Source: Candidatus Hydrogenedentota bacterium (GTDB lineage: Bacteria > Hydrogenedentota > Hydrogenedentia > Hydrogenedentales > JAEUWI01). Taken from it: 64,000 nt of DNA. The DNA lies in the NCBI GenBank assembly GCA_016182605.1, contig JACPGE010000038.1:1-64000 (forward strand). The letters are read 5' to 3'. Each line of letters begins with the position of its first letter. The stretch's first letter is position 1. This document shows positions 3,516 through 64,000 of the stretch, in pieces. The position numbers were made by a program, and so were the translations under genes. Below the pieces are notes generated by a model that worked only from the letters and a program-made list of their open reading frames with translations, had not been told where the DNA came from and did no database searches.

Positions 3516-3866
3516 ATGGAAATCAGCAAATCGAATGAGGACGGGGTTCTGGTGGTGTCGCTTGCCGGGCGGCTGGACGAGATGGCGACGCGGGAGGTGG
3601 AGGCGGCGTTTACGGAGATTGTGGAGCGGGGCGCGGCGCCGGTGATTCTGGATCTGGGCGGGGTGGAGTACATCAGCAGCAACGGGCTGCGCGTGTTGTT
3701 GCTGTTCAACCGGGGCCTCTCGCGGGTGGCGGGTCAATTGAAGCTTGCGGGGCTGACGCCGTTTGTGGCGGAGGTATTTCAGATCAGCAATTTCACGGCC
3801 GTCTTCGAGATCTATCCCACGCGGCAATTGGCCCTTGCGGCGGTGCAGGAGCGCGGGGGGAGTTGA
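3516..3866 (+). CDS. STAS-domain anti-sigma factor antagonist
   Basis: A 116-residue single STAS domain of the SpoIIAA/RsbV type. Beta strands and helix order look complete. The motif YISSNGLRVLL (52-62) puts the phosphorylatable serine of the family at Ser55, with Asn56 in place of the usual Ser/Ala. Such proteins switch anti-sigma kinases or bind partner proteins according to phosphorylation state. GAAGGAG lies just upstream of ATG 3516. It is 47 bases ahead of a Ser/Thr protein kinase gene on the same strand, so the kinase could be its phosphorylator; that is inference. No RsbW-type anti-sigma kinase gene is nearby. Confidence 0.88.
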   Translation: MEISKSNEDGVLVVSLAGRLDEMATREVEAAFTEIVERGAAPVILDLGGVEYISSNGLRVLLLFNRGLSRVAGQLKLAGLTPFVAEVFQISNFTAVFEIYPTRQLALAAVQERGGS

Positions 3867-3913
3867 ACCGGCGCGTGGTCTATTGGCGGCCTATCAAGGA
3901 GTACTGAAGTGAT

Positions 3914-5830
3914 ATGACCGAAGCTGCCGCACCTCATGATGCCAAGACCGTCATTGTCTCACCAGCGGGATCCGAGGGGGATTTGCTTGGGCATCCTGGT
4001 GAGCTTATTGATGGGCGTTATCTGGTGCGCGAGATCCGCGGGGGGCAGGGGAAGACGGGGATGGGGGTGGTGTATATCGTGGAGGACGGGGGAAAGCTTT
4101 TCGCGATGAAGACGTTTCAGAGCCGCTTTGCGACGAACCTGTCGTTTATCGAGCGGTTTATCCGGGAGGCACGCACGTGGATGCTGATCGGCTTTCATCC
4201 GAATGTGGTGGGCGCCTTCAAGCTGGATATATTCCGGGCAATACCGTGCCTGTTCATGGAGTATGTGCCGTCGAACGCGCACGGCTACCATTCGCTGGGC
4301 GATTATTTGCGCGAGGGCCCGATGCCCGAGGATCGGGTGCTGTGTTATGCGGTGCAATTTTGCGAGGGGATGATTCATGCGCTGGGCGCGGTGCCGGGGC
4401 TGGTCCACCGGGACATCAAGCCGGACAATTTGCTGATCACGCCGGAGGGGGTGCTGAAGATTTCGGATTTTGGGCTGGTGCGCTGCAAGGCGTTTCAGGA
4501 CGATGGGCTGGAGGCGGGATTGGAGCCGGAGGGCGGCGTTGCGGGGCGCAACCTGACGCGGGCGGGCACGGTGTTTGGGACGCCGCCATACATGTCTCCG
4601 GAGCAGTTCCGCGGGGCGAGTTCGGTCACGTTTCACGCGGACATGTATGCGTTTGGGTGTTGTCTTTTTGAGATGCTGACGGGGGTACCGCCGTTTCAGG
4701 TGCGCGCGCGGTCGACGGCGGAGCATGTGCGGGCGTACCGGGAGCGGCACACGGAGTATCCGGCGCCGCCGTTGCAGGACTGGCTTCCCGGGGCGCACCC
4801 GGGATTGAACGAGGTGATTCAGCGTTGCCTTGCGAAGCAGCCGGGGGATCGCTGGGAGAGCTATGAGGCGCTGCAGGCGGCGTTGCGATCGATCTGGGCG
4901 GATGTGAACGGCGGGGCGCTTCCGCAATGTCCCGGCGCGCCGCCGCCCGCGCCGAAGACGGTGGCGGGTCAGTTGCGATCGATCGCGTTGCTGGATGGGT
5001 ACACGCGGGCGGTGCGGCTGAAGAATCTGCGGGAGCACCACGCGCAGAGCCCGTACGCGTTTCACCTGGCGCTGGCGTCGTACTTTCATGTGAACCACGA
5101 TGCGCATGAAGAGGAGCGGCAATTGTTGAAGGCGCACGAGGCGCGCGCGGAGGAGTGCGGGTACGAGGCGGTGCGGCGGCTTGCGGAGTTGTACCTGGAT
5201 TCGGAACGTTTCGTGCTTGCGGAGACGATTCTGGAGGGGTATCTGTCCTATTCGCCGGGGGGCCTGGACAGTGTGCTGGAGCCGTATGTTCGGTTGAAGT
5301 GCCACCAGCACGATTTTGAGACGGCGCACCGGCTGCTGGACGCGTATCAAACGGGCACGCGGGGCCAATTGCTGAAGGCGATGGTGTATAACCACGCGGG
5401 CGAGAAGGAGCCGATGTGTTTGTATTTGCGTCAGTTGGTGGAGGAGTTGCTGGATCGGATCGAGGAGAAGCTGGCGCAGGTGGAGACGGGCCAGGCGGCG
5501 GGTTGGGCGCAGAAGAGCGATCGGTACACGCTGGAGGCGGTGTTGCTGTCGCTGCGTCCCGAGGCGGAGATAGGGCGGTTGCGCAGCGCACAACACACGG
5601 TGTGGCCGGATTTGCTCGGGTATCCCGATTTTTCGCAGGACATGGCTTGGCTGTCGGAGGCGCTGGGGCGCTTGGGCGAGAACGACTTGGCCGCGGGCGC
5701 GGAGACGCAGGCGCGGCTGAAGGAGTACGCGGAGTTTCTCGACTATCCGCGCCGCCTGCAGAAGCATTTGGAACGGGACGAGTATTGGTTCTGGATGCAG
5801 CAGGGGATGAATGGAAGCGGTCATGACTGA
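3914..5830 (+). CDS. Hanks-type Ser/Thr protein kinase with TPR-like C-terminal region
   Basis: A 638-residue protein. The kinase domain spans about 36-325: a glycine-rich loop (43-53), AMK with Lys66, a likely helix-C Glu85, HRDIKPDN (His155-Asp157), SDFG (Asp175), then PPYMSPEQF of the activation segment. All catalytic residues are present, so it should be active. No transmembrane segment is visible, unlike PknB-type receptors. The C-terminal 300 residues are helical and TPR/SEL1-like, with repeated AHEARAEE and LLDAYQT-type helices. The gene follows a STAS antagonist and overlaps the next small gene by 8 bases (ATG 5823, stop 5828-5830), so the three form an operon. The STAS protein or the small protein may be substrates. 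Confidence 0.93.
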   Translation: MTEAAAPHDAKTVIVSPAGSEGDLLGHPGELIDGRYLVREIRGGQGKTGMGVVYIVEDGGKLFAMKTFQSRFATNLSFIERFIREARTWMLIGFHPNVVGAFKLDIFRAIPCLFMEYVPSNAHGYHSLGDYLREGPMPEDRVLCYAVQFCEGMIHALGAVPGLVHRDIKPDNLLITPEGVLKISDFGLVRCKAFQDDGLEAGLEPEGGVAGRNLTRAGTVFGTPPYMSPEQFRGASSVTFHADMYAFGCCLFEMLTGVPPFQVRARSTAEHVRAYRERHTEYPAPPLQDWLPGAHPGLNEVIQRCLAKQPGDRWESYEALQAALRSIWADVNGGALPQCPGAPPPAPKTVAGQLRSIALLDGYTRAVRLKNLREHHAQSPYAFHLALASYFHVNHDAHEEERQLLKAHEARAEECGYEAVRRLAELYLDSERFVLAETILEGYLSYSPGGLDSVLEPYVRLKCHQHDFETAHRLLDAYQTGTRGQLLKAMVYNHAGEKEPMCLYLRQLVEELLDRIEEKLAQVETGQAAGWAQKSDRYTLEAVLLSLRPEAEIGRLRSAQHTVWPDLLGYPDFSQDMAWLSEALGRLGENDLAAGAETQARLKEYAEFLDYPRRLQKHLERDEYWFWMQQGMNGSGHD

Positions 5831-6188
5831 CGGTGGCGCAGAGGAGGGCGGGCTGCCTGCGGTAGCGGCGCGCTGGGGGATTTCGCGGAGCGAGGCGGAG
5901 GCGCGCGCGGGGGACTATGCGTGGCTGCTGGAGGAGTTGAGCGGGCGGATACAGCACCTGCTTTGCGGCAACATGGACAAGCTGATGCGCACGTTGTATG
6001 TGCTGGACATTCCGGAGGAGCGGTATCAGGCGGCGATGGGGGCGGCGACACTTGCGGAAAAGGCGCGGCGGCTTGCGGAAGCGGTGCTGGAGCGGGAGAC
6101 GGAGAAGATCGCGGCGCGTGAACGGTATGCGCGCGGGGGGGCTTCGCTCGCCGATCATAGGCATTCCCGATCCGAAGCGCCCGGCTGA
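5823..6188 (+). CDS. small helical protein coupled to the kinase
   Basis: A 121-residue protein of unknown function. ATG 5823 lies inside the 3' end of the kinase gene (ATGACTGA overlap), indicating translational coupling. An in-frame ATG at 5811 is possible but overlaps more. The sequence is mostly amphipathic helix with many Ala, Arg and Glu (EKARRLAEAVLERETEKIAARERYAR), and has no signal peptide, cysteine motif or recognised domain. The C-terminal 15 residues look disordered. By position it could be a kinase regulator or substrate. I do not recognise a family. Confidence 0.7.
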   Translation: MTDGGAEEGGLPAVAARWGISRSEAEARAGDYAWLLEELSGRIQHLLCGNMDKLMRTLYVLDIPEERYQAAMGAATLAEKARRLAEAVLERETEKIAARERYARGGASLADHRHSRSEAPG

Positions 6189-6363
6189 GCTACTTCCAAG
6201 CGTCTCCGCCAGCGCTCCCCCTCTCTCCGTACTCTTCATCAGTCCCTGGGGAATGCCCTCGAAGATTCAAGCTTTTCATTCCCCGCGGCACTGTCCTTCG
6301 CTGCCATTCCCGAATGGCCCGGACGCCGGCCCGGTTTCCCGATCCGCCACAGGCCACACCCAT

Positions 6364-12541: not shown

Positions 12542-12590
12542 GGCGTTACGGTATCCGATTTGGAGCGTCATATCCAACTGTCCGCGCGTA

Positions 12591-12619
12591 TGGACAAATG
12601 GAGGCGTTGGGGTTAGAAT
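12591..12619 (+). promoter_or_regulatory. promoter of the PQQ dehydrogenase gene
   Basis: TGGACA (12591-12596), a 17-base spacer, then TAGAAT (12614-12619): 5/6 at both boxes of the housekeeping consensus with optimal spacing. It fires toward the gene starting at 12693, with a leader of about 65 bases. Confidence 0.72.
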
Positions 12620-12692
12620 CACAGGTCTTCCCGCGGGGCTGCCGCGGGCGGATCGGGCGGACACCGGGCAGAAACGGAGAGGAGGCTCTAGC

Positions 12693-14579
12693 GTGGGTGT
12701 AGCGGGAAAACTCTGGGCAAGCAGCTTGACGCTGCTGGTGGCGGCGGTGGGATGGGCGGGATCGGACGGCACTTCCTGGCCCACGTACAATGGCGACCTG
12801 GGCAGCACGAAGTACGCCCCCCTCGATCAAATCAACAAAGACAACGTGAGCCAGCTCACCCTCGCCTGGCAATGGGACTCCCCCGAAAACGCCCTGGCCG
12901 CCAAGGACCGGCGCCTCATGACCTTCGCCCACGAGGCCACCCCGCTGATGGCCGATGGCGTCCTCTATACCCTCACGTCCCACTGCGTCGCCGCCGCCAT
13001 GGACGCGGCCACCGGCGAAACGCAGTGGACCTACGACCCCGAAAGTTACAAGGCCGGGCGCCCGACCAACCTGGGCTTCCTCGCGCGGGGCCTCGCCTAT
13101 TGGACCGATGGCAGCGTGAAACGCCTTTTCGTGCCCACCGGCGATTCGCGCCTTATTGCCGTCGACGCCGTCAGCGGAAAACCCGTTCCCGAATTCGGCG
13201 TCAACGGCGAGATCGATCTCACTCAGGGCCTCCGCCGGCCCATCGCACGCAACGACTACACCGTTAACTCGCCGCCCATCGTCTGCCGCGATGTCGTCGT
13301 CGTCGGCAGCGCCATCTTCGACGGTCCCAGCTATATGGAAATGCCCCCGGGCGACGTGCGCGGTTTCGACGCGCGCACCGGCGCCCTCAAATGGACCTTT
13401 CAGACCGTCCCCCAGCCCGGGGAATTCGGCAATGAAACCTGGGAGAACGGATCCTGGCAGTACACCGGCAATACCAACGTCTGGACCCTCATGAGCGCCG
13501 ACGACGCGCTCGGCTTCGTCTATCTCCCCACGGGCACCCCCACAAACGACTGGTACGGCGGCCACCGCCACGGCGACGGGCTCTTCGGCGAATCGCTCGT
13601 CTGCCTCAATGTGGAAACCGGCGAGCGCGTCTGGCACTTCCAGCATGTGCACCACGGGGTCTGGGACTACGATCTCCCCGCCGCGCCCGTGCTGGCCGAC
13701 ATTGTCGTCGATGGCACGCCCCGCAAGGCGCTCGCCCAGATCACCAAGCAGGGCTTCTGCTGGATGCTCGACCGCGTCACCGGCGAACCCATCTGGCCCA
13801 TCGAAGAGCGGCCCGTTCCGCAGTCCACCGTGTCCGGCGAGAAGACCTCGCCCACGCAGCCCTTTCCCACCAAGCCGGTGGCCTTTATCGAGCAGGGCGC
13901 GTCGGTGGACAGCCTGATCGATTTCACGCCGGAAGTGCGCGAGAAGGCCCTGGCCATCTTCGAGAAGTATCACGGTGGACCGCTCTACACGCCCCCCGGC
14001 ACCGACAAGCCCACCATCAACATGCCCGGCTGGGCGGGCGCCGCAAACTGGAATGGCGCCGCACTCGATCCGGAGACCGCGACCCTCTTCATCCCCGTGA
14101 AGCGCGCGGCCATCTCCATGCTGCTCGTAAAGCCCGATGCGGCGCGATCCAACTTCGACTATGTCGGCCGCCCGGAACTCTACGTCCAGGGCCCCGAAGG
14201 GCTGCCCCTCTGGAAGCCCCCCTACTCTTACGTGATCGCGCTCAACATGAACACCGGCGAGTACACTTGGAAGACCACCACCGGCGCGGGCCCCAAGGAT
14301 CATCCGCTCTTGAAGGGGCTGAACCTGCCCGACCTCGGCGACTTGGGCAAGGGCTTCCCCCTCGCCACCAGGAGCCTCCTCTTCCTCGCGATGGAAGACG
14401 AAAACAAGATGTTCTATGCCTTGGACAAGGGCACCGGGGAAATCCTCTTCAAGATGGCCCTCCCCGTCACCCCCACCGGCGCACCGCTTACTTACATGCA
14501 GAATGGAAAACAGTTTATCGTCCTGGCCGGCGGCGGCCGCCGCGAGCCGGCCTCCATCATGGCGCTCGCATTGCCCTAA
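12693..14579 (+). CDS. PQQ-dependent dehydrogenase (quinoprotein, beta-propeller)
   Basis: A 628-residue periplasmic quinoprotein. GTG 12693 follows GGAGAGGAGG and begins a signal peptide ending near VGWAGSDG. The mature protein starts with the family entry motif WPTYNGDLGSTKYAPLDQI and contains repeated propeller-blade motifs (VDAVSGKPV, FDARTGALKW, LNVETGERVWHFQ, LDRVTGEPIW, ALDKGTGEIL). Such enzymes oxidise alcohols, aldoses or polyols and pass electrons to a cytochrome c or quinone. I see no fused haem domain and no adjacent vicinal Cys-Cys typical of methanol dehydrogenase. The next gene, 27 bases downstream, encodes a cytochrome c protein that could accept its electrons. No PQQ synthesis genes are in the window. 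Confidence 0.9.
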   Translation: MGVAGKLWASSLTLLVAAVGWAGSDGTSWPTYNGDLGSTKYAPLDQINKDNVSQLTLAWQWDSPENALAAKDRRLMTFAHEATPLMADGVLYTLTSHCVAAAMDAATGETQWTYDPESYKAGRPTNLGFLARGLAYWTDGSVKRLFVPTGDSRLIAVDAVSGKPVPEFGVNGEIDLTQGLRRPIARNDYTVNSPPIVCRDVVVVGSAIFDGPSYMEMPPGDVRGFDARTGALKWTFQTVPQPGEFGNETWENGSWQYTGNTNVWTLMSADDALGFVYLPTGTPTNDWYGGHRHGDGLFGESLVCLNVETGERVWHFQHVHHGVWDYDLPAAPVLADIVVDGTPRKALAQITKQGFCWMLDRVTGEPIWPIEERPVPQSTVSGEKTSPTQPFPTKPVAFIEQGASVDSLIDFTPEVREKALAIFEKYHGGPLYTPPGTDKPTINMPGWAGAANWNGAALDPETATLFIPVKRAAISMLLVKPDAARSNFDYVGRPELYVQGPEGLPLWKPPYSYVIALNMNTGEYTWKTTTGAGPKDHPLLKGLNLPDLGDLGKGFPLATRSLLFLAMEDENKMFYALDKGTGEILFKMALPVTPTGAPLTYMQNGKQFIVLAGGGRREPASIMALALP

Positions 14580-55827: not shown

Positions 55828-58644
55828 TCACGCGGGGTTTTCTGGCGCAGGGGTTTCTTCGGCGGGGAGTGCGGGGGCGGGATCCGCTTGGGGGGCCGGG
55901 GCCTGCTGCGCAGGGGCCGGAGCACGGACAATTTCCGTCAGCGAGGATACGCCGCCACCGGGCATGATGGTGCTGATGTGGTAGTTGTGGCAGATGGTGC
56001 AGTTGTTTCCGGCTTCTGACTGGGTATGGCATCGGACGCAGGTGGCTTTGGAGATGCCGGGGAAGTTGCTGGCGAACGGGCGCGGCGACGCGGTATCCAC
56101 GTGGGTGAAGCTGACGCCGAGTTCTTTGGTGCGCACGCCGTCCTTGTCGAGGGCGCGGAAGCCGTCCAGATAGGGAAGCGCGGGGGCGGCTGCATCTGGG
56201 GTCTTCCATGGTTCTGGGTGGCATTCCTGGCAGTCCATCAATTTGAGGTGGGGCTGGTGGTTAAAGCGGACCAGCCGCTTTGCCCCGGGTTTGCCGGCCC
56301 AGTTTACCTGCACGTGGTAGGCCTGATTGACGTCGGTGGAGACGTCCACACTGTGGCACTTGGTGCAGTTGCCAGGGGAGGCGCTGGGATCTTTGCGGCC
56401 GCTGAGGTAGTCAAAAAGCACGCGCGCGCCCGGGTTCGATCGGTAGAGTGCGGCGGTTGTGTCGAGCCAGGCCTTGAGGAAGGGGTCGGCATGCCCGACG
56501 GGCCGGTAGAGCAGGGAACGCGGCGAGCTGAGCGGGAACCAGCCGGCATCGCTGACGCGGAGGGCGCTTTCGAGCCAGGACTGGAACTTGCTTTGGTCTT
56601 CGATCCATTTTACGAAGGCCAGCGCGGGCTCATCCCTGGTTTCTTTCGCGGACTTTTGCAATGCGGCGTAGGCCGGCACGTCGGCGAGATGTTCGGACCA
56701 GTCTCCGGAGCGAATCGAGCTTCCGTTGCTCCGGTTCAACCAGCGGCTGCCGTCCACACGCACGTGGCCACTGAACCAGGAGCGCACGGCATCTCGGTTC
56801 TCGAACCAGGCTGCGAAGTCTTTCAGCGCGGCCTTCCACGTTTCCGGCAATGCCGCTTGGGGCGCGGTGGTCCCGGCATCGGCTTGTTCCGCCGCGGGGG
56901 CGCCGTCTGGTGCGGCCTCTGCGGGGGCGGGGGCCTGCGCCGCGGCGCGGGGTGCGGCAAGCGCGGCATATTCGGGGAGGGCCAGCGCCATTTTTTCCCA
57001 TTGGGACGCGGGAATCGACGCGCCATCTTCGCGGCTGAGCCATCCCGAGGCGGAGACGACGTCGGTGCGCGCAATCTCGGCGAAGACCGCGCTTGCGGGT
57101 TTGACTTGTGCGAGCCCGCCCAGCATATCCGTCAGCGTTCCAGTGTCTGGACTGCGCCCGAGGACGGCGGCGATCTTTTGGGCGAGGATCGCCGTTTCAG
57201 ACACCTGCTCCAGGCTGCTCAAGAGGGAGTGCGTGCCGAGAAGCAGGCGTTCGACGGACTTGATCTCCGCTTCGTCTTCCACGTCGGGCAGACTGCCGTT
57301 TTCCGAGAAATCCATCGCGAGCGTTTCAGCGGCCACCTTCAGATCGGCGGCGTCCTGTCCTGTGGAGTCTCCGCCGCCCTGCATGAAGAAGGTCATGAAG
57401 GGCGAGAGCATGCGGTTCTGCACTTCCGGGAATCCATCGATGAGGATGTCTTTGTCTTCGAGGCTGAGGAGATCGACGGAGGGGTAACCGAGCACGGGAA
57501 TCCAATCGCCCTGCTTGTCTTTCGTGATGTCTTTTCCGAGGTGACATGCGCCGCACATGCTCTCGAAGGGGCGCAGGGAGGTGGCAAAAGGGGTCGCGCG
57601 CATTTCGTGGCAGTCGTCGCAGCGATTGGGGGCCAGTTGTGCATTGGCGCCTTCGAGGAAGTGCTTTTGGACATGGCTGGCGTGGTCGAAGACGATGCGG
57701 GTGCGGCGGCGGAACGGGAAGTCGTAGGCGTCGCCATTTTCGAGGGAGGCGAAGCCGGGGTGGCTGGCGTCGAAGCGGTCAAACTGCCGCACGTGGCAGA
57801 CTTGGCACGCGTTGTTGTCGATGTCTTTCAGGTCGAAATTGCGGCCGTTGTGTTCATGATGGCAAGAGGCGCACGCGAGTTGTCCCTCGGGGGCGCCTGC
57901 GGGGCCCGGAATCAGGCTGGCGAGTTTCAGCGAGAGGTCTGTCTTGCCTTGTGGCGGCTTTTTTTGGGCCGTTGCGGTGCGCAGCCCGAGTTCACGGGGC
58001 ATGGCGCCGTGCGCATTGAGGGAGAAGGCGCCCAATTCCCCGTGGCACTGGAGGCATTGCGTGCTTTGACTCGTCCTGTCGCGGCGCACGGGATTGACGA
58101 GGCTGTGGAGGCCATCCGTCATGGATACATGGCAGAGATCGCAGCTCTCGTCTCCAGCAGCGGTCTGGATGCCATGTGTCAGTATGCCCTCCTGAACGCC
58201 GTACGAAGCCCCTTCATGGAAGGCGGTCAGCGGGCCAGGAGAAAAAAACGCGTTCCGGAAGCGGCTGCCCATCGCCACAAGCAGGAGGGCGGCGGCGAAG
58301 AGGCAGAGCATATACACGGTGTAGGCGCGCTTCGCGCGGAGGCTGCGCACGGGGACACACTGTGCGGGCCGGCAGCACTGGACTTCACCGTTCCTGGAAA
58401 TGGGGCCGAAGGAGGGTTCGGGGCTGTTGGGCCCGTTGCAGGGGCCGCCGAAATCGTCGGGGCGCGTGCAGACATGGCGGTCGCCGACCTTCACCGGGAC
58501 GCACTCGAAGTTGCCCGGGCAGGCGCCACTCGGGTGGGGACCTCGCGGACAGGGCTGCCCCGACGCGGCATTGCCACAGACCCATTTCTGGTTGGGCCAG
58601 TTGTAGCGCCGCTTGTAGATGGCCTTGTGATCGCTTTGGCTCAT
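55828..58644 (-). CDS. membrane-anchored decahaem cytochrome c
   Basis: A 938-residue protein with ten CxxCH haem motifs: CDLCH (168-172), CLQCH, CASCH, CQVCH, CDDCH, CGACH in the first half and CTKCH, CQECH, CVRCH, CTICH near the C-terminus. A haem-free region of about 350 residues separates the two sets. One membrane helix lies at about 108-126. Before it is a Cys-rich segment (nine Cys between 23 and 96) that would face the cytoplasm and may hold metal. The tail is Pro/Ala-rich. It should carry electrons in the periplasm, and c-type maturation is required. It directly follows (TAAATG) the cytochrome-b-like gene, so it is last in a redox operon. Confidence 0.92.
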   Translation of the reverse strand: MSQSDHKAIYKRRYNWPNQKWVCGNAASGQPCPRGPHPSGACPGNFECVPVKVGDRHVCTRPDDFGGPCNGPNSPEPSFGPISRNGEVQCCRPAQCVPVRSLRAKRAYTVYMLCLFAAALLLVAMGSRFRNAFFSPGPLTAFHEGASYGVQEGILTHGIQTAAGDESCDLCHVSMTDGLHSLVNPVRRDRTSQSTQCLQCHGELGAFSLNAHGAMPRELGLRTATAQKKPPQGKTDLSLKLASLIPGPAGAPEGQLACASCHHEHNGRNFDLKDIDNNACQVCHVRQFDRFDASHPGFASLENGDAYDFPFRRRTRIVFDHASHVQKHFLEGANAQLAPNRCDDCHEMRATPFATSLRPFESMCGACHLGKDITKDKQGDWIPVLGYPSVDLLSLEDKDILIDGFPEVQNRMLSPFMTFFMQGGGDSTGQDAADLKVAAETLAMDFSENGSLPDVEDEAEIKSVERLLLGTHSLLSSLEQVSETAILAQKIAAVLGRSPDTGTLTDMLGGLAQVKPASAVFAEIARTDVVSASGWLSREDGASIPASQWEKMALALPEYAALAAPRAAAQAPAPAEAAPDGAPAAEQADAGTTAPQAALPETWKAALKDFAAWFENRDAVRSWFSGHVRVDGSRWLNRSNGSSIRSGDWSEHLADVPAYAALQKSAKETRDEPALAFVKWIEDQSKFQSWLESALRVSDAGWFPLSSPRSLLYRPVGHADPFLKAWLDTTAALYRSNPGARVLFDYLSGRKDPSASPGNCTKCHSVDVSTDVNQAYHVQVNWAGKPGAKRLVRFNHQPHLKLMDCQECHPEPWKTPDAAAPALPYLDGFRALDKDGVRTKELGVSFTHVDTASPRPFASNFPGISKATCVRCHTQSEAGNNCTICHNYHISTIMPGGGVSSLTEIVRAPAPAQQAPAPQADPAPALPAEETPAPENPA

Positions 58645-59469
58645 TTACAAGGCTCTCCCGGAGAAGGCGTGCGCAAGCCACACGTGCACGAGGACCAGCA
58701 GCAGGAGCACATAGGTGAGGGGAATATGGATGAAGAGCCATGCTTTCAGGGTGAATTGCAGGGCGTGGTGATAGTCCAGCGTGTCTTTCCGGCGCACGTG
58801 CTCCCCGATCTCCGTGAGTATGCGCCGTTCTTTGTCGTTGAGATAACGGTATTGTTCTTCGATCTTGCGCTGGAGCCGGTTGACGGGCCCGGAGAATTCG
58901 AAGAGGTGGTAGAAGAAATGGCGCGGCCCCTCGAAGTAGGCGCGGAGGTGATCGGTGTAGAAGGTAATCAAGGTGAGGGATTGCGTTTCTTCGACGGAGG
59001 ACTCCGCCAATGCCTCCACCGCAAGCTGGATACGGCGGCGGTGTTCGGGGAGGCGCTCGAAGACCACCTCGCCGCCGCGCACGGTCATGCGGCGCGGAAA
59101 GATGCGGGAGATGAAGATGCCTGCGATGCCGGTGATGACGACGGCGAAATAGAGCGCGGCGAGGAGCGTTTCCAGGATGCCGGTGGGGAACTGGAAGCCC
59201 GCGTGGAGCAGGTAGGGGGCGAGCGTGAAGACGCCGGCGTAGAGATGGAATTGCAGCCAGGCGCGCGAGGAGATGAGCGGCGGGACGGGGAATTTCTTGC
59301 GCGCGTTGTAGAGGGCGAGCGCGATCATGAGGGCGAGGAAGAACCAGCCGGTGATCAAGTGGCGCCGGTATAGATTGACGCCGAAGATGCGGTCGATCGT
59401 TACGGTGGCAAACACCGCCAGGATCACCACGCTTAGGGCGAGGATTCTACGTTTTGCAAAATAGTTCAC
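58645..59469 (-). CDS. cytochrome-b-like membrane protein
   Basis: A 274-residue protein with about five to six hydrophobic segments: 10-27, 38-56, 72-90, 98-122 and, after a soluble loop (125-235), 242-268. His residues sit at helix positions typical of haem b ligands (RRHLITGW, FHLYAGV, LLHAGF, IHIPLTY, VHVWLAHAF). It is probably the quinone-interacting or electron-crossing subunit between the Fe-S protein and the periplasmic cytochromes. GTG start overlapping the previous stop (GTGA, 4 bases) shows translational coupling. The family is not certain; cytochrome b561 or ferric-reductase-like folds are possible. Confidence 0.8.
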   Translation of the reverse strand: MNYFAKRRILALSVVILAVFATVTIDRIFGVNLYRRHLITGWFFLALMIALALYNARKKFPVPPLISSRAWLQFHLYAGVFTLAPYLLHAGFQFPTGILETLLAALYFAVVITGIAGIFISRIFPRRMTVRGGEVVFERLPEHRRRIQLAVEALAESSVEETQSLTLITFYTDHLRAYFEGPRHFFYHLFEFSGPVNRLQRKIEEQYRYLNDKERRILTEIGEHVRRKDTLDYHHALQFTLKAWLFIHIPLTYVLLLLVLVHVWLAHAFSGRAL

Positions 59470-61259
59470 CGGCGCACAAACTTCGCCACTTCGTTCGCAT
59501 CCTGCATATTAATGCGCGCGAGGGCATCGTGCGGGCAGGCCCGCACACACGACGGGCCTCCCGGCTGTTCATGGCAAAAATCGCATTTGGTGGCCTTGTA
59601 TACCGGCGCACCGGCGCTGTCTCCCTCGGCGACGACCACGAAATCTCCGCGCCGGTTGCGGACGGCAGCCATGCGGATGGCGTCGTAGGGGCAATTGCTG
59701 TAGCAGGTGGCACAGCCGATGCAGGTTTCTTCATTGATGACGACGCGCCCTTCGTGGCTCTCGCGCGAAATGGCTCCGGTGGGGCAGCCGATCATGCAGA
59801 CGGGATCGGCGCAGTGCATGCAGGCGTTGGCGACCATGATCCCATTGCGGACGGGTCCGTTCCGCACGAAGCGCGGGTTCTCATCGTGGGCGCCGGCGCA
59901 GGCGCGGACGCAATCGTCGCAACGGGTGCAGCGGTTCAGATCGATGAGCATGGTCTTCGTGCCGTTGAGGAGGCGGTGCTCCGCGAAGAATTCGAACATG
60001 TCCGGCCCGATGCGATCCCATACCGAGTCCATGGCCTGAAAGACCGGTTTCTTGTCGGGGCCCCGTTTGACGGCCAGTTTCGATTTGGTTTCCGCGGGCA
60101 ACTGGGGGAGCACGAATTCTTCAATGAGCCGCGTTGGCACGACGATCACGTGGGTGTAGCCGATGGCGCGCAGGCTGTGCTGCAAAGGGATGGGGTGGTT
60201 CGGGTGCTGCCAGTTGTAGAGGGCTTCGCGCAGCCCGAAGACGTGACCGGTGGTCATGTAGTTCAGGGTCTGATGCCCGTGCCCATACTCGCGGCTTTCG
60301 CGCGCGAATCCGGCGCGCAGGAGCAGGACACCGTTGGCGTAGTCGCCCTCGCGCGCAATCACCTCCTCCTTCTCAATGACTGTGAATTTCTCGGCGTCGC
60401 TCAGACCGATGTATTCGGAGGACCACTCGTCGTACTTGCCGTAGGTGTAAAACTGCACCTGGTCCAGTTCGCTGTCGGGGATGTTGCGGAATTCCGGCAC
60501 GGCGTCGAGGGTGCCGCGAAGCGAACGCTCCCGGTAGAGGCGGTCGATATGACGGGCAATGCCCTCATCGGCTCCCATCAGATCGCGCAGGCCCTGCCAC
60601 CGGATTTCGAGCACGCGGCTGTCTTCCGCGGCAAGAATCGAGAGTTCCCGCGGCATGCGGTAGATGGCGCCGATTTCGCCAAAGAAGACGCCGGGCTTCA
60701 TCGGGACGGTTTGATACTTTGCGGGATCGAGGATACTTTCCAGTTGCGAGGGGCTGACAGCAATGCCTTTTTCTTCCTGCCGCTTCTGCCGGGAGGCTCC
60801 GAACCGGTATTCGGGCGGGCGCGGCCGAAGGCGGTTGCCCACGAGGCGGAGGAGCGAACCGGCGACACCGCGGTGCTGGGGCTCACGGTGGCCGAGCAGG
60901 CTGTCCGGGAGGTTGGGACTGAGGACGGCGCGCAAGGCGCCATTGAGGAGGTAGAAGGCCGAGTTGCCGTAGTCGTCTTTGCGCAATACGAATTCGCCCT
61001 TGCGGAACGAGCGTATACGGGCATCGTTTTGCAGGATCCCGTAGATGGAGACGGGCGTGCCGAAGGATTCGAATCGGGGCACGCGCGCGCTTTCAAGATC
61101 GGGGCAGATGGTGGAGAAGGGTTCTCGCGCGAGAATGTCTTCGATCTGTTTGTCCGGCATTTCCCCGTAGGGCTTGGCCCAACGAGTGAGACGTTTCAGG
61201 CCGGGGGCAGTCCCTTGCGGGGCGCTTGCCACGGGCCGGAGTGAAGACGGAGTTGCCAT
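59466..61259 (-). CDS. cNMP-binding-domain protein fused to four-cluster ferredoxin
   Basis: A 597-residue fusion. Two cyclic-nucleotide-binding (CRP-type) beta-barrels fill about 70-240 and 270-385 (FRKGEFVLRKDDYGNSAFYLLNG; REGDYANGVLLLRAG, FGLREALYN). No DNA-binding helix follows. Residues 430-590 form a HybA/DmsB-like electron-transfer unit with four cysteine groups: CTRCDDCVRAC; CMHCADPVCMIGCP; CIGCATCYSNCP; CDFCHEQPGGPSCVRACP, i.e. four [4Fe-4S] clusters. It is cytoplasmic by sequence. It likely gates or relays electrons between a cytoplasmic donor and the cytochrome b encoded next. A terminator-like hairpin lies upstream. Confidence 0.88.
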   Translation of the reverse strand: MATPSSLRPVASAPQGTAPGLKRLTRWAKPYGEMPDKQIEDILAREPFSTICPDLESARVPRFESFGTPVSIYGILQNDARIRSFRKGEFVLRKDDYGNSAFYLLNGALRAVLSPNLPDSLLGHREPQHRGVAGSLLRLVGNRLRPRPPEYRFGASRQKRQEEKGIAVSPSQLESILDPAKYQTVPMKPGVFFGEIGAIYRMPRELSILAAEDSRVLEIRWQGLRDLMGADEGIARHIDRLYRERSLRGTLDAVPEFRNIPDSELDQVQFYTYGKYDEWSSEYIGLSDAEKFTVIEKEEVIAREGDYANGVLLLRAGFARESREYGHGHQTLNYMTTGHVFGLREALYNWQHPNHPIPLQHSLRAIGYTHVIVVPTRLIEEFVLPQLPAETKSKLAVKRGPDKKPVFQAMDSVWDRIGPDMFEFFAEHRLLNGTKTMLIDLNRCTRCDDCVRACAGAHDENPRFVRNGPVRNGIMVANACMHCADPVCMIGCPTGAISRESHEGRVVINEETCIGCATCYSNCPYDAIRMAAVRNRRGDFVVVAEGDSAGAPVYKATKCDFCHEQPGGPSCVRACPHDALARINMQDANEVAKFVRR

Positions 61260-61271
61260 AGTCTCTTTTCA

Positions 61272-61301
61272 AAAGCCGCGCCCGGGAATCCCGGGCGCGG
61301 C
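61272..61301 (-). terminator. terminator after the tetrahaem cytochrome gene
   Basis: GCCGCGCCCGGG (61275-61286), loop AAT, CCCGGGCGCGGC (61290-61301): perfect 12-bp stem. On the minus strand it is followed by TTTTGAAAAG. It lies 15 bases after the tetrahaem stop and 13 before the cNMP/Fe-S gene, so it could be a full or partial terminator within the cluster. Confidence 0.75.
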
Positions 61302-61315
61302 CACTGCACCTTGGG

Positions 61316-62353
61316 TTATTCGAAGGCTTTGCCTTTGTATTCGGTAGGAAGTTTGCTGTCGACGGCGGCCAGGTTGCTGGCGTAGCTGTCTTTCTTCGCC
61401 TCGAAGGCCTTTGCCGATGTGCTGATCGCATCCGCCGCGGCCAGATATTCGGCTTCGTTGCCTGCGGCCACCTTCACGGCGCCGCCGTCGGACGGCACGG
61501 CCTTTACGGCGGCGTCGATTTCCGCGACGCCGGAGACGCCCATACCCTTGAGGTCGCCGAGCACGCGGTTGGCGCGTTCGCCCATGGCGGTGAGGAAATC
61601 TCCTTCTGCGGTGGCGACGGCCAGTCCGCGCAGGGTGTATTCCATATCGAGGAGTTTGCCGATGACGTAGAGGAGACGGCGCTCTTCCGCGGGGGCTTCC
61701 TTGTTCTGGGCTTCGTCGGGCAGGGGCAGGAAATTGTGGCGTATTTCGCCCTGGCTCCAGGCGACGAGTTCGAAGTCGCTGCCCGCCTTGTGGTGGCCCT
61801 TGTTCACGAGATCTTCGCGGGGGACGGTGTGACAGCGGTAACAGCTTGTCGCCAGTTCGTAGATTTTGTCGGTAAGGCGCATGCCGTGCTGTGCCGCTTC
61901 GGCGAGGCGCGCGGCGCGATCGGGGCGGCCTTTCACGTCCTGATGGATGGCGAGCCAGTCGACGGCGGCGCCGTGGCAGCGCTGGCAGGAGATGCCCATG
62001 ATGGTCTTGGGCTCGCCGCCGCCTTCGGCATGCTGGGTGTAATGGCACTGCACGCATTCGTCGTTGCGGCGGATGCTGCCGGACATGCCCAGGTCGGTGA
62101 GGATGGTCTTTGCTTCTTCGCGCTGGTGCAATTCGTCATAGGTGACTTTGTGGGTGGACTGGGTCCACGCCTGGACCGAGCGGGCGTGGCACTGCGAGCA
62201 ATTTTCCGCTTCGTTGGCCACGATTTTTGCCGGATCGTAAGAGAGTATGGGTTCCGCCGCGGACGCGTTTGGGGTCCACAGGGACACGGCTGCGGCTATC
62301 GCCAGGGCCAGGCCCCATTGGGTTTTCCGGGTGAGCTGCATTGAGATTTTCAT
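61316..62353 (-). CDS. secreted tetrahaem cytochrome c (cytochrome c554-like)
   Basis: A 345-residue protein with signal peptide (about 1-32, ASA|AE) and four CxxCH motifs: CSQCH, CVQCH, CQRCH, CYRCH, all in the first half. The spacing and ITHK/HTVP-type His residues resemble the cytochrome c554 family that shuttles electrons in the periplasm. The second half is Ala-rich, helical and haem-free. Two starts are possible (ATG 62353, ATG 62365); the GAGGAGG site is too close to 62365, so 62353 is preferred. It lies between the NqrF-like reductase and the cNMP/Fe-S gene. Confidence 0.87.
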   Translation of the reverse strand: MKISMQLTRKTQWGLALAIAAAVSLWTPNASAAEPILSYDPAKIVANEAENCSQCHARSVQAWTQSTHKVTYDELHQREEAKTILTDLGMSGSIRRNDECVQCHYTQHAEGGGEPKTIMGISCQRCHGAAVDWLAIHQDVKGRPDRAARLAEAAQHGMRLTDKIYELATSCYRCHTVPREDLVNKGHHKAGSDFELVAWSQGEIRHNFLPLPDEAQNKEAPAEERRLLYVIGKLLDMEYTLRGLAVATAEGDFLTAMGERANRVLGDLKGMGVSGVAEIDAAVKAVPSDGGAVKVAAGNEAEYLAAADAISTSAKAFEAKKDSYASNLAAVDSKLPTEYKGKAFE

Positions 62354-62405
62354 GATACGAGCCATCCTCCTCTGATCTGATGTATTGCACATTTCCTACG
62401 CGAAC

Positions 62406-63716
62406 TCAGGCGTCCAATTCAATGGACGTCTCCGGAACGGCAATGCAGGGCAGGCAGTAGCCCGCCTGCAAGCCCGGAAAGGCCGGTTGCGTTCCCGGAT
62501 AACACACCGTACCGCTTTTCAACGCCGTATGGCAAGAACCGCATTTGCCCTGCCCGCACGCATATTTGATCTTCTTCTCTTTGTACTTGTTTGCCTTGGC
62601 AAGAGTGCGCAGACTGGCTTCGCCGTGCCAGGTCAGCTCTTTTCCAGAATGGGCATAGACCACCTTGTGCGCCACGCCTGCGATTGCGGGCGCGGGCGCC
62701 GCGGCGGGCGCGCCACCGAAGGACTCCCAGTGCACGTTCTGCTTCGGCACGCCCCACTCCAGCAGCCCCCGCTCCATCCCCGTCATCATGGGTCCCGGAC
62801 CGCAGATGAAATAGTCGTAGTTGTTGTGCGGCAGGGTCTGTTTCATGAGAGCGGCGTCCACCCGGGACTGAAGGTAATGGATGCCATTGGCGGCCTTCGC
62901 GCCTTCCGATCGATTCGCAGGCAGGACATCGCTGAAACAGAAGTGCACCCGCGCGTTGGGCAGGTTGGCCGCGGCGAATTCGAAATTCCGCTGCATGATC
63001 AGTTCGTCTTCGGCGCGGACGCCGTAAAAAACCCAGATCTCCCGGGTGCTGTTTTTGTCGATGAGCGCGTTCATCATGCAGAGAATGGGGGTAACGCCCA
63101 CGCCGGCGGCGAGGAGGACGACGGGGCTTTCCTTGTTGAGATCGAGGAAGAAATCGCCCGAGGGCGCGTGCACATCGATGAGTTCGCCTTCCTGCACGCG
63201 ATCGTGGAGGAAGCCAGAGACCACACCGGGAGGCGTGCCGGGGGCGGCATTGGGCGGGGGTAAAACGCGCTTGACGCTGATGCGGTAATAACGTGGGTTG
63301 GGGCTGTCGGAGAGGGAGTAACAGCGCGATTCTTCCACAATCTCATCGGGGTCGGCGAGATCGGGCACATCGAGGCGGAACATGAGGAACTGGCCGGGAT
63401 AGAAGGCGGGAAGGGGCTTGCGGTCGTGGGGGTAGAAGTAGAACGAGCAGATGTCGCCTTTTTCGTTTTCCAGGATCTTCTTGCGCACCTCGAACTTGCG
63501 CCAGCCGGTCCAGGAGGCTTTGCTGGATTCGGCTTCTTCCACGCGCAGTTCGGCGGCTTCCACGCGTTTCTGCCATTCGCGCAACTGGAGCTGCCGCTGA
63601 ATGACAGCGCTTCGGGAACGCTGCAAGTTTGTGTAGACCAGCATGGGGAGCTGCAAGACGAGGCATCCCACAATGGTCAGGCCGGCCCCCAGCGCAATCA
63701 ATTCAACCATAAACAT
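62406..63716 (-). CDS. membrane NqrF-like FAD/[2Fe-2S] reductase
   Basis: A 436-residue protein. An N-terminal membrane helix (about 4-28) and coiled linker are followed by an FAD domain (FYPGQFLMFRL, RCYSLSDSP), an NAD domain (LLAAGVGVTPILCMMN, YFICGPGPMM) and a C-terminal plant-type ferredoxin (YACGQGKCGSC, then C near YCLPC). Domain order is like phthalate dioxygenase reductase (FAD-NAD-Fd). It should oxidise NAD(P)H on the cytoplasmic side and feed the adjacent redox proteins. It starts near ATG 63716, with further possible starts within 10 bases. Confidence 0.86.
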   Translation of the reverse strand: MFMVELIALGAGLTIVGCLVLQLPMLVYTNLQRSRSAVIQRQLQLREWQKRVEAAELRVEEAESSKASWTGWRKFEVRKKILENEKGDICSFYFYPHDRKPLPAFYPGQFLMFRLDVPDLADPDEIVEESRCYSLSDSPNPRYYRISVKRVLPPPNAAPGTPPGVVSGFLHDRVQEGELIDVHAPSGDFFLDLNKESPVVLLAAGVGVTPILCMMNALIDKNSTREIWVFYGVRAEDELIMQRNFEFAAANLPNARVHFCFSDVLPANRSEGAKAANGIHYLQSRVDAALMKQTLPHNNYDYFICGPGPMMTGMERGLLEWGVPKQNVHWESFGGAPAAAPAPAIAGVAHKVVYAHSGKELTWHGEASLRTLAKANKYKEKKIKYACGQGKCGSCHTALKSGTVCYPGTQPAFPGLQAGYCLPCIAVPETSIELDA

Positions 63717-63779
63717 TACCACCACTTGCGCGACGCGCCATTCGGAAAGCGCCGCGCGCCTGCGTCAAACCGCTTCGGC

Positions 63780-64000
63780 CTAGAACTGCACCACGAATTC
63801 CGTGCGCAGGCCACGCTTGTCTGCCAAGTTTTCCCGCTGAACAAAATATGCGTCAACCCGCCACACAAAACGGTTCTTGATTGCTTGCTGATAACGCGCC
63901 ATTACGCCCAATCGTCCCCGATCCGTGCCGTCGGTATCCGTGCGCCCGCCAACTTCCAGTATGACCTGCTTGCGCGTATCGGAAAAGAATTTTTGATATC
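63780..64000 (-). CDS. outer-membrane beta-barrel protein, 3' end only
   Basis: Partial gene running off the window. The last 72 residues read alternating strands (KQVILEVGG; GRLGVMARYQ; RFVWRVDAYFV; LRTEFVVQF) and end in Phe, the hallmark C-terminal residue for outer-membrane insertion. Stop TAG is at 63782-63780. The gene is upstream of the reductase/cytochrome genes on the same strand, 64 bases away, so it probably heads or shares their operon. A porin next to multihaem cytochromes recalls porin-cytochrome conduits. The rest of the protein is needed to confirm. Confidence 0.75.
   Translation of the reverse strand, partial: YQKFFSDTRKQVILEVGGRTDTDGTDRGRLGVMARYQQAIKNRFVWRVDAYFVQRENLADKRGLRTEFVVQF

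Follow-up and report, generated by a model that had tools for sequence, protein, structure and literature searches.

The window, that is, the whole 64,000-nucleotide stretch analysed (bases 1-64000 of the 73,347-bp contig C95, from the 6.76-Mb genome of an uncultured Candidatus Hydrogenedentota bacterium), ends in a series of minus-strand redox genes. The question is which electron-transfer system they encode and in which direction it would work. The six features described there by the initial annotation were all found in their places, as the open reading frames agreed and domain and CXXCH scans confirmed. Extension along the contig past the window gave the entire barrel gene and one more cytochrome gene, completing a seven-gene operon transcribed in the order A-B-C-D-E-F-G (Table 1). 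From A to E the genes are separated by gaps of 55, 54, 13 and 56 bp. The overlapping starts first reported are real for E and F, which share 4 bp, but F and G merely abut, so "several" was a slight overstatement. Downstream of the cluster lie ftsY and a type II/IV secretion ATPase gene, unrelated to it. The nearest named homologues belong to Candidatus Hydrogenedentota MAGs.

Table 1. Genes of the redox cluster in order of transcription, with coordinates on contig C95 (identical to window positions up to 64000).
Gene	Product	Length (aa)	Coordinates	Strand	Features
A	Pentahaem cytochrome	674	65713-67737 (outside window)	(-)	5 CXXCH
B	Outer-membrane beta-barrel (predicted)	625	63780-65657 (in window 63780-64000, 3′ end)	(-)	Signal peptide, C-terminal Phe
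C	FAD/NAD(P)H reductase	439	62406-63725	(-)	N-terminal TM anchor, C-terminal [2Fe-2S] ferredoxin domain
D	Secreted tetrahaem cytochrome	358	61316-62392	(-)	4 CXXCH, c554-like N-terminal half
E	Cytoplasmic two-CNB + four-[4Fe-4S] protein	597	59466-61259	(-)	Pfam domains, 16 Cys
F	Five-TM di-haem cytochrome b	274	58645-59469	(-)	Two WX3HX13H
G	TM-anchored decahaem cytochrome	938	55828-58644	(-)	10 CXXCH, eight-Cys N-terminal domain, one TM

Relation to PCC4 and other porin-cytochrome systems

The name PCC4 dates from 2017 and was given on genomic evidence. The founding paper (He et al. 2017, PMC5566968) defines the system by a porin, three periplasmic cytochromes (4, 5 and 10 haem sites), an inner-membrane protein (IMP) and other redox proteins. 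The IMP has five TMs, a WX3HX13H motif on each of TM3 and TM5, and SGXXG on TM4. Subgroup II is marked by a pfam13247 Fe-S gene upstream of the IMP gene and by a redox gene that precedes the tetrahaem one. The hosts listed are Alpha-, Gamma- and Zetaproteobacteria and Planctomycetes, and the model ties the IMP to the quinone pool, a link that was assumed, in Fe(II) oxidation.

The cluster matches PCC4 subgroup II, as every defining feature has its counterpart in it. The porin corresponds to B, a predicted barrel with a signal peptide, amphipathic strands and a C-terminal Phe (aromatic in 24/24 homologues); the 4-, 5- and 10-haem cytochromes to D, A and G; the five-TM IMP to F, with TGIAG on TM4 in the window instead of SGXXG; the pfam13247 gene to E, directly upstream of F; and the redox gene to C, directly upstream of D. 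It was therefore wrong to regard the combination, as had been done initially, as not one of the standard sets known. The cluster is a real, conserved and new Hydrogenedentota member of the known, uncharacterised PCC4. This phylum is not named as a carrier in the available portion of PMC5566968, nor in the other papers found, and a literature search for biochemical or later experimental work on PCC4 found none. Besides its host phylum, the cluster differs from the published account in its apparent link to NAD(P)H, with a possible response to cyclic nucleotides, in place of the quinone link drawn in the paper. That text does not discuss the cassette of E, the clustered cyclases, the FHA inserts, the eight-Cys domain of G or the second outer module of Verrucomicrobiota, all described below.

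The arrangement also resembles MtrCAB/CymA of Shewanella in having an inner-membrane donor, periplasmic multihaem cytochromes and an outer-membrane barrel. However, entry at the inner membrane would occur here through NAD(P)H/Fe-S proteins plus a cytochrome b, unlike the quinol-oxidising CymA, and the barrel is smaller than MtrB (about 467 columns shared in its family). A crude heuristic counted about 20 amphipathic strands in B, which matched no Pfam or NCBIfam family; the cluster cytochromes did not reach the cut-offs of the DmsE-family and OmcA/MtrC models. On these model scores the cluster does not qualify as an Mtr/Mto complex, which consists of an MtrA/DmsE-type decahaem protein plus an MtrB barrel. 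Another likeness is to the porin-multihaem clusters of freshwater Verrucomicrobia (He et al. 2017, PMC5615132), which also combine a novel barrel with multihaem cytochromes in Verrucomicrobiota; their periplasmic partners are octahaem proteins and the inner-membrane part was not named.

Conservation and distribution

Homologues of E were sought in 68 Hydrogenedentota (all of one order), 398 Pseudomonadota, 388 Verrucomicrobiota and 392 Planctomycetota genomes, and were found in 4, 13, 14 and 41 of them, respectively. At 70 E loci, some on cut contigs, the partners present were F (69), G (66), D (62), C (49) and A+B (23). The figures for F and G mean a linkage far beyond chance. C accompanies E at 20/20 Verrucomicrobiota loci and is absent nearby at 17/33 Planctomycetota loci, some of these also on cut contigs. 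All seven families occur together at 15 loci of four phyla, and the same order and strand are kept at 13 of these (in Hydrogenedentota, Pseudomonadota and Planctomycetota); the Pseudomonadota locus L049 has an A-G order identical to that of the window cluster. Barrel, reductase and cytochromes are thus linked in relatives, contrary to the situation which the initial annotation had named as its refutation.

In a maximum-likelihood tree of E, the four Hydrogenedentota rows form one clade (100/100), nested within a well-supported clade otherwise made of Verrucomicrobiota. The latter retain C-E-F-G and show no A-B. Near C-E-F-G, many Verrucomicrobiota encode instead an approximately 800-aa barrel-like protein and an approximately 1,300-aa decahaem LVIVD protein, a combination that sets these loci apart from the clusters of PMC5615132. 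Thus the inner-membrane core, C-E-F-G, is conserved and is combined with differing outer modules. The LVIVD gene and the adjoining barrel-like gene are exemplified by L013:2-3784 and 3781-6240, with similar pairs in L014-L016, L020 and L105-L110. A second copy of the cluster, apparently broken, was observed at L117 (G594:C1 263000-282900), with E in two frames, F in two pieces and no G found.

Cofactor sites and the probable direction of electron flow

Reductase C matches PF00175 (3e-18) and PF00111 (2e-07), and the closest relatives of its FAD/NAD(P)H domain are flavohaemoglobin-type reductases. The [2Fe-2S] ligands Cys 390/395/398/427 are kept in 49/49 homologues. The original label of NqrF-like NAD(P)H reductase stands as to NAD(P)H reductase and was imprecise as to NqrF: the [2Fe-2S] domain is C-terminal, not between TM and FAD domain as in NqrF, the TIGR01941 score is 88 bits against a cut-off of 295, and the best relatives are of the other type. 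E, with its two cyclic-nucleotide-binding (CNB) domains, matches PF00027 (3.5e-20), Fer4_7 and Fer4_11/pfam13247 (PF13247, 4.6e-11). Its 16 Cys, spaced for four [4Fe-4S] clusters, do not vary across 11 homologues of four phyla; its Fe-S relative in the PDB is of the HycB3 type. The predicted model of E, with a pLDDT of 57 and the Fe-S half unresolved, was set aside. A plasmid search for E found none.

F carries W71x3H75x13H89 and W244x3H248x13H262 within five TM helices assigned from motif and hydropathy. The four His are kept in 56-57/57 homologues, and both Gly of the TM4 GxxG in 57/57, relatives having SGxxG. The match of F to PF01292 is weak (3.9e-05), and its predicted model (11-row alignment; helical, pLDDT 78) was too poor for fold comparison and gave no meaningful PDB match. 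The anatomy recalls NADPH oxidases (NOX) and ferric reductases (FRD, PF01794), whose NAD(P)H flavin reductase delivers electrons to a pair of b haems, ligated by the HX13H motifs of TM3 and TM5. The cluster differs in that these parts are distributed among several proteins and that five Fe-S clusters, four [4Fe-4S] and one [2Fe-2S], are interposed. The PF01794 profile matched 1/11 F members (E=0.0092), and a NOX-like working of F would rest on the HX13H geometry.

Among the cytochromes, D matches PF13435 (3e-13) and cytochrome c554 of the PDB (9e-06), and the N-terminal half of A is c554/NapC-NirT-like in profile searches. The four haem sites of D and four further His are conserved in 43-44/44 homologues, and A has five further conserved His besides its five sites. 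G has its TM helix at residues 107-125. Its eight-Cys domain (residues 23-96; window 58357-58578) matched no Pfam family, yet is conserved in most homologues, with Cys 23, 32, 42, 48, 59, 69, 90 and 96 invariant across 11 aligned ones. This domain is probably cytoplasmic, because an Arg-rich stretch precedes the TM and c-haem attachment sites are periplasmic.

Considering gene content and cofactors, it is probable, with moderate confidence, that the PCC4 cluster is an NAD(P)H-driven trans-envelope electron exporter, perhaps cyclic-nucleotide gated. An NAD(P)H route is suggested because the reductase and five Fe-S clusters precede a NOX-like two-haem membrane protein. In the complex that the products may form, C would oxidise NAD(P)H via FAD and pass electrons to its own [2Fe-2S], from which they would reach the four [4Fe-4S] clusters of E and then the inner b haem of F. 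The two stacked haems of F would take them to the far side of the inner membrane, in the manner of NADPH oxidases and ferric reductases. Periplasmic passage would fall to G, D and A, and the last transfer, through or at the outer membrane, to A together with barrel B, with ferric iron, humics or the like as the external acceptor. A cyclic nucleotide on the CNB domain of E would probably open or close this route. The observations in favour of export are the seven-gene order kept at 13 loci, the near-invariant cofactor sites, the dedicated flavohaemoglobin-type reductase at 49/70 E loci and, in F, the five-TM double WX3HX13H layout known from FRD/NOX and described for PCC4 IMPs. Transfer of electrons from NAD(P)H to the envelope, in line with the original proposal, is still the best reading, and the cell surface may be where it ends.

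Transfer from NADH to the outside is downhill both chemically and electrically, and the reverse, to NAD+, requires energy. RuBisCO was absent in 49/60 carriers, including all four Hydrogenedentota, and a haem-copper oxidase was present in 33/33 tested carriers. This pattern favours aerobic heterotrophs shedding electrons over Fe(II)-oxidising autotrophs, while leaving room for Fe(II) oxidation.

The same data bear on the opposite direction. According to He et al. 2017 (PMC5566968), electrons of extracellular Fe(II)/Mn(II) would come in by way of the porin and the cytochromes, and the quinone pool would be reduced by F, with C and E branching off or modulating the inward flow. This model is published, its carriers include Fe(II)-oxidising Zetaproteobacteria, and the terminal oxidases of all 33 tested carriers agree with it. 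However, it leaves no role for C and E, whose FAD and five Fe-S clusters lead towards NAD(P)H; most carriers lack RuBisCO, and inward flow to NAD+ would need an energy input. It therefore seems unlikely, and the anatomy favours an NAD(P)H-fed, NOX/ferric-reductase-like exporter. That the reductase and the Fe-S hub are conserved speaks for a direct route from NAD(P)H to the outside; if true, heterotrophs could shed reducing power without the quinone pool.

Some observations weigh against export. E may receive electrons from a different donor, since so many Planctomycetota loci have no C nearby; F may exchange with quinone; and B may not sheath a multihaem cytochrome, given the small size of its family relative to MtrB. 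That size would suit a simple porin, as in a different reading in which A or D is an enzyme reducing a nitrogen oxide, peroxide or other substrate (respiratory or detoxifying), C-E-F-G supply the electrons, and the barrel admits the substrate. The resemblance of A and D to c554/NrfH-like cytochromes agrees with it. On the other hand, the further His of D and A equal the haem sites in number and suffice for bis-His ligation, so neither protein has an obvious open haem, and the barrel accompanies A at 23 loci. A periplasmic reductase is thus quite improbable, and export to or beyond the outer membrane is preferred.

Possible cyclic-nucleotide link

The phosphate-binding cassette FGE(I/L)xAL..R.xRxATV was found, as a strict pattern, in 54/72 E ORFs, and 16 more have only the looser GE...R pattern. 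The cassette of the window E, FGEIGAIYRMPRELSIL, retains Glu and Arg and diverges after them. Class III cyclase genes occur within the approximately 20-kb neighbourhood of 11 loci in two phyla, which represent about four or five lineages and not 11 independent events. At six related Planctomycetota loci, an FHA-cyclase gene lies directly between A-B and D-E-F-G (L125:6010-7773, L126:12645-14384, L127:5867-7759, L128:5994-7736, L129:12733-14553 and L149:5954-7717); the remaining loci are two of Planctomycetota and three of Verrucomicrobiota. In 20 genomes, partly chosen for having a cluster-linked cyclase, 53 cyclases were counted, about 2.7 each, with about 0.01 expected per 20-kb locus. In Hydrogenedentota, 64/68 genomes have a cyclase, so co-occurrence is uninformative there, and the single cyclase lies away from the cluster.

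Gating of the route by cyclic nucleotides via E is, from these sequence features, a supported hypothesis. A literature search for CNB domains combined with multihaem cytochromes found none. If true, the CNB domain and clustered cyclases would mean that a second messenger directly controls an electron conduit. The fuller proposal is of an NAD(P)H-driven "bacterial NOX" that bypasses quinone and reaches the outer membrane, in which the CNB domain of E serves as allosteric switch on the electron path and, in some lineages, an in-cluster class III cyclase supplies the nucleotide; it is put forward tentatively and is open to considerable doubt.

FHA inserts in E or C were identified by Pfam at L111:4154-6217, L118:9283-11316 and 12575-14191, L140:2781-5357 and L144:9304-13383, and by eye at L018:1059-3209, hinting at a possible phospho-signal control. 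Finally, a mechanosensitive channel gene with a CNB domain adjoins the cluster at L014:13217-14725, and an ORF at a similar place, L020:15981-17483, gave a weak match to the E profile (3e-10).
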